A DNA stretch of 64,000 nucleotides from Humisphaera borealis (GTDB taxonomy: Bacteria > Planctomycetota > Phycisphaerae > Tepidisphaerales > Tepidisphaeraceae). The number at the start of each line of letters is the position of its first letter. The first letter of the stretch is position 1. Both the position numbers and the translations under genes were made by a program. The stretch spans positions 3,658,001 through 3,722,000 of the forward strand of contig NZ_CP063458.1 of the NCBI RefSeq assembly GCF_015169395.1. The letters run 5' to 3'. The notes under the pieces were generated by a model. It worked only from the letters and a program-made list of their open reading frames with translations. It did no database searches and was not told where the DNA came from. This document shows, piece by piece, positions 42,428 to 55,962 of this stretch.

Positions 42428-43096
42428 ATGTCTTCAACAAACGCCACGAAGAAATCAAAACCGTCGGACGAGCGGGGAACGATCACCTCCCGCATCCTGC
42501 GAGCGGGCAACCGGGTCTACGCCCGCACCTTCCACCGCATCGACGTGCAGACGCCCTGCCGATTGCCCCGAACCGGACCGGCGATCCTGGTCTGTAATCA
42601 CATCAGCGGCCTGGATCCTTTGCTGCTGCAGGCCGTTATCCCCAGGCCCATCGTCTGGATGATGGCCCGCGAATACTATGATATCGCCGCCCTTCGATGG
42701 GTTTATCAAGCCGTCGATGCCATCCCGGTCGAACGCAACGGCCGCGACTCTTCCGCCACGCGGGCGGCCTTGCGGGCGCTGGGCAGCGGGCGTGTTTTGG
42801 GTGTGTTCCCGGAAGGCCGGATCGAGACCTCGCGCGAACTGCTCCCGTTCCATACCGGCGTCGCGATGATGGCGACGCGCGCAGAGGTCCCGGTTGTTCC
42901 CGCGTATCTCGACGGATCCAACAGGGGAATGGAGATGCTTGAAGCGTTCGTCGAACCCAATGACGTCAAGCTCCGCTTCGGCCCGGCGGTGGATCTAGCG
43001 CCCAGCACCCCGGGTGAAAAGATCGATCTGAATATCTGCACATCAAGAATCTTCGATTCGGTTTCAAGTCTCAAGAAGACAATGGCTTATGCGTGA
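42428..43096 (+). CDS. 1-acyl-glycerol-3-phosphate acyltransferase (PlsC family)
   Basis: A 222-residue protein from ATG 42428. The acyltransferase catalytic motif is NHISGLD (NHx4D) near residue 57, and the second motif is FPEGRIE near 127, followed by VPVVPAYLDGS near 152. These are the four-block signature of PlsC-type lipid acyltransferases, which acylate lysophosphatidate in membrane-lipid synthesis. No obvious transmembrane helix at the N-terminus beyond a short hydrophobic patch. It is followed by a candidate small RNA, not by other lipid genes. Confidence 0.93.
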   Translation: MSSTNATKKSKPSDERGTITSRILRAGNRVYARTFHRIDVQTPCRLPRTGPAILVCNHISGLDPLLLQAVIPRPIVWMMAREYYDIAALRWVYQAVDAIPVERNGRDSSATRAALRALGSGRVLGVFPEGRIETSRELLPFHTGVAMMATRAEVPVVPAYLDGSNRGMEMLEAFVEPNDVKLRFGPAVDLAPSTPGEKIDLNICTSRIFDSVSSLKKTMAYA

Positions 43097-43235: not shown

Positions 43236-43265
43236 TTGACAACAAAGGGATAGCCCTACGATAAT
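43236..43265 (+). promoter_or_regulatory. Strong sigma-70-like promoter for a candidate small RNA
   Basis: The -35 box TTGACA (43236-43241) is a perfect match, and the -10 box GATAAT (43260-43265) matches five of six. Spacing is 18 bp. The predicted start of transcription is near 43272. No coding frame of useful size follows before the terminator at 43313-43349. Confidence 0.65.
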
Positions 43266-43271
43266 TTGGGG

Positions 43272-43349
43272 GATACAGGATACTTAGCGCGACGGCGCAT
43301 TTTCTCCCTCCGGAAGACACCGTGCAGCAATGCCGGTGTCTTCTTTTTT
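43272..43349 (+). ncRNA. Candidate small RNA (~78 nt) with own promoter and terminator
   Basis: The segment lies between a consensus-like promoter (43236-43265) and a textbook intrinsic terminator (43313-43349). The 5' part (about 43272-43312) is mostly unstructured and ends in a pyrimidine-rich stretch, TTTTCTCCCTCC, which could bind purine-rich ribosome binding sites. I do not recognise it as SRP RNA, 6S RNA, RNase P or tmRNA. The transcript is inferred from signals only; no gene shares the strand nearby apart from PlsC 140 bp upstream of the promoter. Confidence 0.55.
43313..43349 (+). terminator. Intrinsic terminator
   Basis: A 10-bp perfect stem, GAAGACACCG (43313-43322) with CGGTGTCTTC (43334-43343). 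The loop can extend by GCA/TGC closing a GCAA (GNRA-type) tetraloop, and six T residues follow at 43344-43349. This is one of only two canonical intrinsic terminators found in the window. Confidence 0.85.
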
Positions 43350-43481
43350 AACTCTTCTCGGTTCGCGCCTTGGTTCGCTGTTATCCCGGACTTCTGCTCC
43401 ACGCCCGCATCCGGAAAAGTAGGCCGCTCCACTTTGGGTCGGTCCCCGCTTGGAAAAATGTCCTCGCCGTGACCGCTGGAC

Positions 43482-43820
43482 TCACCCCGGCGGCCACGTG
43501 AACTCCCGCCCCGCCAGGACGTGTAGGTGCAGGTGAAAGACGGTCTGCTGTGCCCCCGCGCCGCAGTTGAACACCGTTCGGTAGTCGGTGTGTCCGAGTT
43601 CCTTCATCACCTTCGAAGCGACCAGAAACAGGTGCCCGGCGAGCGGCGCATCCTCCGGCTTGAGGTCATTGAGCGTCGGAACGAGCTTCTTCGGAATCAC
43701 CAGAATGTGCGCCGGCGCTTTGGGCGAGACGTCGTGAATCGCGATGCAGAGATCGTCCTCGTGAAGGAACTTCGCCGGAATCTCGCGATCGATGATTTTC
43801 TGAAAGATAGTTTTGGACAT
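43482..43820 (-). CDS. HIT-family nucleotide-binding hydrolase
   Basis: A 112-residue HIT protein from ATG 43820 (MSKTIFQKIIDREIP), the usual family start; an in-frame ATG seven codons upstream is not preferred. The catalytic histidine triad is HLHLHVL near residue 98-104. Other features are ELLxHEDD-like FLHEDDLCIAI near 19 and NCGAGAQQTVFHLH near 88. Length fits HINT-type AMP-hydrolases that cleave AMP-lysine or similar phosphoramidates. It is a single-gene unit convergent with PlsC and divergent from the MacB-type permease. Confidence 0.95.
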   Translation of the reverse strand: MSKTIFQKIIDREIPAKFLHEDDLCIAIHDVSPKAPAHILVIPKKLVPTLNDLKPEDAPLAGHLFLVASKVMKELGHTDYRTVFNCGAGAQQTVFHLHLHVLAGREFTWPPG

Positions 43821-43834
43821 AAGGTGTGGGGTAG

Positions 43835-43979
43835 AAGGCACAAAGGCACCGAGGACGCGTGGTTCAAAATCGCCGGCAAACGAAGGCTTGCGTCCGAGCG
43901 TAATAATGGGGACTCTCTGGCCAAGAGTAAATGGGTTGAACAGACCCGCCGTGCCTTCGTGCCTCTTCGTCTTCGTGCC
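43835..43979. repeat. Inverted repeat of AGGCACAA/TTCGTGCC-type units
   Basis: The left arm (43835-43857) has AGGCACAAAGGCACCGAGG words, and the right arm (43951-43979) has the complementary GTGCCTTCGTGCC words. They are ~95 bp apart. The unit matches the run at 24061-24092. The structure fills the spacer between the HIT gene start and the MacB-type permease start. Confidence 0.7.
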
Positions 43980-55596: not shown

Positions 55597-55673
55597 GAAA
55601 GGTGAGTGTAGCGGAAGAGTTGGGAAGTCGAATGTCGAATGACAATCCACAACCCACTCCCGCCCCGGCGCGC

Positions 55674-55712
55674 AAAAAAAGGCTGCACGGTGGAGGGTAG
55701 TACCGTGCAGCC
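55674..55712 (-). terminator. Intrinsic terminator on the minus strand
   Basis: On the minus strand an 11-bp perfect stem (GGCTGCACGGT with ACCGTGCAGCC, 55681-55691 and 55702-55712) has a 10-nt loop, followed directly by seven T residues (A-run 55674-55680 on the plus strand). It stops a transcript coming from higher coordinates, where no protein gene exists on this strand. It lies upstream of the small membrane protein gene in the direction of transcription, so it could be an attenuator. Confidence 0.88.
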
Positions 55713-55962
55713 TGGCGGAGGAGGAAACGAGGTTCGTGTGACTATGTTTCTTGCGGTTTCTCTCGTCCGGTCGCTTTTGGCGACTCTCTTTCACTTTTGA
55801 GGGTCTCCGACAGGCTGGTTCAGCTCAGCCTGTCGAAGCCCCACTTGACCCTGATCTCCCCTGAGCCCCAAACCTACCGGGGTCAGAGCCTGTTGCAGAG
55901 CAGTCCGTCGGCATCCATGCCAGGGTTCCCGTCTGCTCTCGGCCACATCATGCGACCTCAAA
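55674..55962 (-). ncRNA. Possible untranslated RNA or leader ended by the terminator
   Basis: A transcript ending at the terminator 55674-55712 must begin further right on the minus strand. No coding sequence lies there, so an RNA of up to ~290 nt or a regulatory leader is possible. It contains a polar, Arg/Lys-rich short frame just before the terminator and a 9-bp hairpin near 55810-55835. The 5' end is a guess. Confidence 0.3.

Follow-up and report, generated by a model that had tools for sequence, protein, structure and literature searches.

In the Firmicutes, the sRNAs RsaE/RoxS, with UCCCC motifs, and FsrA block ribosome-binding sites by means of C-rich single-stranded seeds. The alphaproteobacterial 'cuckoo' RNAs carry conserved anti-Shine-Dalgarno CCUCCUCCC motifs, which lie in hairpin loops; these RNAs are present in several copies per genome and in many hosts, and many of them are associated with Hfq. 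(The CCUCCUCCC motif occurs in PMC3927594.) In Xanthomonas, sX13 uses C-rich loops and represses, independently of Hfq, via G-rich sites near start codons (PMC3771888). Very few small RNAs have been described in the Planctomycetota and their relatives; according to a 2022 survey, the PVC group as a whole has 8 Rfam sRNA families (PMC9029176).

The locus described here lies within a 64-kb window (the whole stretch of DNA that was analysed) and may represent a new sRNA family of this known kind, which by analogy would work like the C-rich anti-Shine-Dalgarno sRNAs of other phyla without being a member of them. Like sX13, for which Hfq-independence is known, the RNA has a C-rich unpaired motif with complementarity to G-rich motifs close to translation starts. 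However, sX13 is gammaproteobacterial, measures 115 nt and has three stems and loops that are C-rich, whereas here one linear tract adjoins the terminator, and the two share no sequence or structural homology. With the 'cuckoo' RNAs it has in common a conserved anti-Shine-Dalgarno pyrimidine motif and multiple copies per genome, but it is specific to the Phycisphaerae, a lineage apparently without Hfq. The C-rich single-stranded (putative) seed is a likeness to RsaE/RoxS and FsrA, from which the RNA differs in phylum, in fold and in having no Rfam match. The features of the locus, in window coordinates, are these:

42428..43096, + strand: upstream gene, a 1-acylglycerol-3-phosphate O-acyltransferase (plsC-like)
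43236..43265, + strand: sigma70-type promoter
43272..43349, + strand: predicted small RNA of ~78 nt (covariance match to model R2, see below, at 43289-43350, 58.7 bits)
43287..43298, + strand: small 5' hairpin GCGC-GACG-GCGC, in most members from the window's family, not class-wide
43300..43313, + strand: conserved tract UUUUCUCCCUCCGG, almost unchanged among 64 members drawn from many families
43312..43344, + strand: terminator hairpin with an 11-bp outer stem and an inner GCA-GCAA-TGC
43344..43349, + strand: T-tract of the intrinsic terminator, six T, read from the sequence
43482..43841, - strand: downstream convergent gene for a histidine-triad (HinT-like) protein

The promoter is present just as the original prediction had it, with a perfect TTGACA (-35) at 43236-43241, an 18-bp spacer and GATAAT (-10) at 43260-43265 on the + strand. 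In a scan of the 64-kb window it is the sole sigma70-like site with at least 10 of 12 matches, and shuffled windows contain a mean of 0.1 sites with 11/12 matches. Most relatives in the window's family (f1, 26 genomes) have a TTGAC-type -35 followed, at a comparable distance, by an AT-rich -10. The RNA thus has the promoter of its own that is expected of an independently transcribed sRNA, in the window and, as retained motifs, in its relatives. When the 5' end is placed ~7 nt past the -10 element, the predicted RNA of ~78 nt has a fold of -34 kcal/mol (z -5.2 against shuffles); a transcript of this length without a coding frame had been proposed. No tRNA or tmRNA was found. An ORF of 68 codons, with a TTG at 43266, spans the sRNA region, and it was rejected as a gene because it starts inside the promoter, continues beyond the terminator and would have to accommodate a seed that differs in length by one base from that of the relatives.

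The terminator is as predicted or slightly stronger, since its arms (43312-43322 and 43334-43344) form 11 pairs, the last of them a G-U, rather than the 10 that had been claimed; within the hairpin a T is bulged out and GCAA caps a 3-bp GCA/TGC stem. (It should be noted that both signals had been considered far stronger than anything else in the window. This is true of the promoter, but not of the terminator, because the minus strand carries, at 55713, a hairpin of 12 pairs with seven T.) At 11 of the 13 terminator consensus pairs both sides have changed with pairing retained, G-U pairs included; none of 500 shuffles was as good, and shifted registers were much worse. As expected for an intrinsic terminator, the structure is conserved, with 95% of the alignment cells paired. 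The covariation, the G-U pairs and the dependence on register show an RNA structure rather than a DNA palindrome.

A similarity search of the 25 other genomes of the window's family with a 181-base query gave significant matches in 20 of them (E 3e-21 to 1.5e-9), always to the same ~57-77 bases, which run from just 5' of the CU tract through the T-tract. The element is present in 21 of the 26 family genomes, where the identity of 82-98% is limited to the seed and the terminator, and the proposed check in related genomes was borne out for promoter, CU tract and stem alike. Some of the five family genomes that gave no match are incomplete (G001 and others); the results for G024 (95% complete) and G009 (91%) suggest true losses of the sRNA. 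Extra copies, diverged or degenerate, were seen within the same family in G002 (L243) and G014 (L244 and L245), and the latter two look like decayed copies without a good terminator. A covariance model built from the sequences of this family (R1) matched other families of the class, and a second model (R2), built from 40 sequences of many families, detects the element at E<=1e-6 in 212 of 397 Phycisphaerae genomes and in at least 15 families, with 2-3 copies in several genomes. The remainder of the phylum-wide search, which served as the control for restriction to the class, gave R2 matches that are weak (at most ~33 bits); those inspected were terminator-only, without the CUCCCCUCC tract, or isolated seed-like strings, and the weak matches were counted as chance because the inspected ones do not have the core-plus-terminator architecture.

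Searches of Rfam 15 with the window and seven related loci gave no family at the gathering threshold, and at E<=10 there was no meaningful match to the sRNA, which agrees with the earlier statement that it matches no known RNA; the literature covered, that is, papers readable without a subscription, yielded no account of an RNA like this from these organisms. The term orphan is therefore apt as regards known RNAs, but not otherwise, since the RNA is a member of a large class-wide family. Taken together, these comparisons show an RNA gene that is conserved, has a promoter and a covarying intrinsic terminator of its own, and is found across the Phycisphaerae in unrelated contexts. An sRNA family that about half of the sampled Phycisphaerae genomes possess, with a near-invariant core of 12-14 nt, would rank among the sRNAs most widely kept within a single bacterial class; with the alignment and the covariance model, the gene can be annotated directly and its deletion becomes testable in cultured members of the class.

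The CU-rich tract of the original prediction is real (43300-43311, + strand). In relatives it reads CUCCCCUCC, and the window copy, UUUUCUCCCUCCGG, is without one C; in the alignment of the window's family the GCGCATTTTCTCCCCTCCGGAAGAC block is almost invariant, and the missing C makes the window copy unusual. The class-wide tract, UYYYCCCUCCGG, is mostly unpaired, lies directly 5' of the terminator and is almost invariant across families; of 64 members, 41 have TTTTCTCCCCTCCGG and 16 have TTCTTTCCCCTCCGG. Its last ~10 positions are at or near 2 bits, and the flank 5' of the tract is near 0 outside the window's family. The computed unpaired probability of the 13-nt tract has a mean of 0.70-0.75 (about 0.72) and is >0.5 in 86-89% of members; in the window copy, modelled folding indicates that the tract may pair weakly with 5' GGA sequences. 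The complement of the tract, CCGGAGGG(G)ARRRR, corresponds to a Shine-Dalgarno sequence plus spacer, and in the window's family it runs on to AUGCGC, the underlying GCGC being limited to that family. Thus, as in the C-rich sRNAs of other phyla, there is an accessible C-rich motif that is complementary to ribosome-binding sites (complement CCGGAGGGGA).

By analogy with those systems, the RNA probably acts as a C-rich antisense sRNA that pairs with ribosome-binding sites and so blocks them, without the need for Hfq. It would be a trans-acting small RNA of ~78 nt, independently transcribed, in which the near-invariant unpaired tract serves as the seed; by pairing, without Hfq, with purine-rich ribosome-binding sites in at least one mRNA, this seed would keep the 30S subunit from binding and so reduce translation. 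A multi-target seed would be expected to look like this one, invariant and next to a terminator that covaries freely. With a PF17209 profile, no Hfq gene was found in any of 14 Phycisphaerae genomes, including the window's own, and the control genomes were positive; if that search was complete, Hfq is not the helper in these genomes, and an Hfq-independent mode fits. An Hfq-dependent sRNA was accordingly set aside for the genomes tested. The family would offer a clean test of base-pairing sRNA action where Hfq seems absent.

The original prediction had also proposed that the tract could pair with ribosome-binding sites. This is plausible because no other part of the RNA is as conserved as the tract, but the target searches gave the idea no support. 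In G353, a single-contig genome that has the sRNA (2.0 of 2.27 Mb scanned, 1478 genes called), seed pairing in start regions was no better than that of shuffled seeds or that within internal coding sequence, and no functional gene class was enriched among the long seed matches. Exported/prepilin proteins were considered as a target class on the strength of a few top matches and dropped after a negative Fisher test (at least 6 matched bases). The extended complement GGAGG-N1-4-AAAAUGCGC is present in 24 of the 26 family genomes, mostly as the reverse strand of the sRNA itself, and its sites have no recurrent gene start across these genomes. When 15 genomes were searched for GGAGGGGA-N2-9-AUG, patterns complementary to the core outnumbered the reversed control pattern, as is expected of any Shine-Dalgarno-like string; the few genes that recurred in this search do not keep the site, and the best of these candidates, an ATP-cone protein, was rejected because its site is not conserved in the orthologues. 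In the window's own genome GGAGGGAGA-N1-8-AUG gives, apart from the sRNA itself, two sites, and the frames that follow them are short and doubtful. The enriched or conserved start-codon targets that would mark a C-rich anti-Shine-Dalgarno sRNA were thus not found in these searches. This leaves three readings: targets are few, pairing is short and governed by accessibility, or a protein binds the tract.

If the tract were a protein-binding site, the RNA would titrate or guide an RNA-binding protein (a translation factor or a chaperone that replaces Hfq) with no mRNA pairing. Such a role would be consistent with the failure of the complementarity searches to yield targets and with a tract of 12-14 nt that is near-invariant throughout the class, even at positions that a seed could vary alongside its targets; nevertheless it is rather unlikely, since the tract is exactly anti-Shine-Dalgarno in sense and is linear and unpaired, without a conserved surrounding hairpin outside the window's family. 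The anti-Shine-Dalgarno sequence of 16S rRNA is CCUCC, which the CCCCUCC of the tract resembles, and an RNA that acts in bulk, by mimicking the 16S tail and competing for Shine-Dalgarno sequences generally, would be a global translation brake, in keeping with the invariant seed and with the finding that no specific target stands out. This is improbable: the conserved tract of 13-15 nt is far longer than such an activity requires, and a generic anti-Shine-Dalgarno RNA should prefer genes led by a Shine-Dalgarno sequence, for which there was no excess over shuffled seeds.

In the window the RNA lies between the plsC-like gene, which is upstream in 16 of 21 family loci, and the HinT-like gene, of which it is not a leader because that gene is convergent. 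Elsewhere in the class the neighbours are others: in f20 the sRNA comes after nrdJ (class II ribonucleotide reductase) and/or is convergent with secA; in f14, f17 and f3 one copy follows nrdJ; and in f4, f5 and f21 cmk is nearby. (The distance to nrdJ in f20, f14, f17 and f3 is 90-220 nt, the sRNA being downstream, as at L206, L226, L229 and L248. Nucleotide-metabolism genes, nrdJ and cmk, recur near the sRNA; this is an observation on neighbourhood, and a functional link is not claimed.) The combination of unrelated neighbours between families and a sequence that is itself kept argues for a free-standing gene rather than a leader; a leader or attenuator was rejected because the neighbours vary and are often convergent.

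If there were no separate RNA, the element would only terminate the upstream gene strongly, or be a 3'-UTR element with a conserved tract. In favour of this, the copies in the window's family and those linked to nrdJ follow a same-strand gene at a distance of 90-300 nt; it seems very unlikely in view of the consensus-hexamer promoter in the window, the fixed-spacing promoter at 17 other loci and the retention of the tract where the upstream gene differs or is on the opposite strand. A cis-acting leader or small gene on either strand (for example, from a minus-strand GGAGGGGAGAAAATGCGC start) is hardly credible: the reverse strand in the window's family does read a Shine-Dalgarno sequence plus ATGCGC, but almost no member from other families keeps the ATG (typically ...GGGGAGAAAACT), which is essentially confined to that one, and this led to the rejection of a reverse-strand gene. 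In addition, frames and stops are not preserved, the gene downstream is often convergent, and one base is deleted in the window copy.

The fixed-spacing promoter just mentioned, TAAAG-N16-NNCGA, is found upstream of the sRNA with exactly the same spacing at 17 loci (f20, f16, f8 and f26). In three f20 genomes (L253, L254 and L257) a canonical TAAAGT-N13-GCCGATAA precedes a gene that, from its sequence, presumably encodes a sigma-28-like factor, and the position of this motif before the gene suggests that the gene is autoregulated. The sRNA promoters of the same families have the same hexamers in the form TAAAG(T)-N15-GCCGATAA, which is 2 bases longer than the version before the sigma-28-like gene. 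A sigma-28-like factor may drive the sRNA in part of the class (f20/f16/f8, TAAAG-N16-NNCGATAA), although such control is uncertain because the spacing is longer than that of the canonical version.

The window contains another CCUCC-rich element:

55668-55750, - strand: second conserved RNA element, in 15 of 26 family genomes and in four copies in the window's genome

The other copies in that genome are at 3881863, 3936047 and 5059220. The element consists of CCUCGUUUCCUCCUCCGCCA followed by a terminator hairpin with ACCCUCC in its loop (consensus CCUCGUUUCCUCCUCCGCCARGCYGCACGG-loop with ACCCUCC-CCGUGCRGCYUUUUUU), so that CCUCC is found twice over, once in unpaired sequence and once in the loop of the terminator. 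It has no Rfam match and no match to R2, no conserved promoter was found, and its neighbours are variable; the changes in its stem, GCUGCACGG/CCGUGCAGC and GCCGCACGG/CCGUGCGGC, look compensatory. Judged from these sequences, the presence of the second element suggests a recurring use of anti-Shine-Dalgarno RNA elements in these genomes. It is conceivable, though put forward only tentatively, that a class in which no Hfq is detectable keeps a near-invariant anti-Shine-Dalgarno sRNA as a core regulator of translation, partly under a sigma-28-like promoter and within a broader set of CCUCC-rich RNAs, two of them in the window. Of these two, the second element looks closer to the 'cuckoo' RNAs than the sRNA does.
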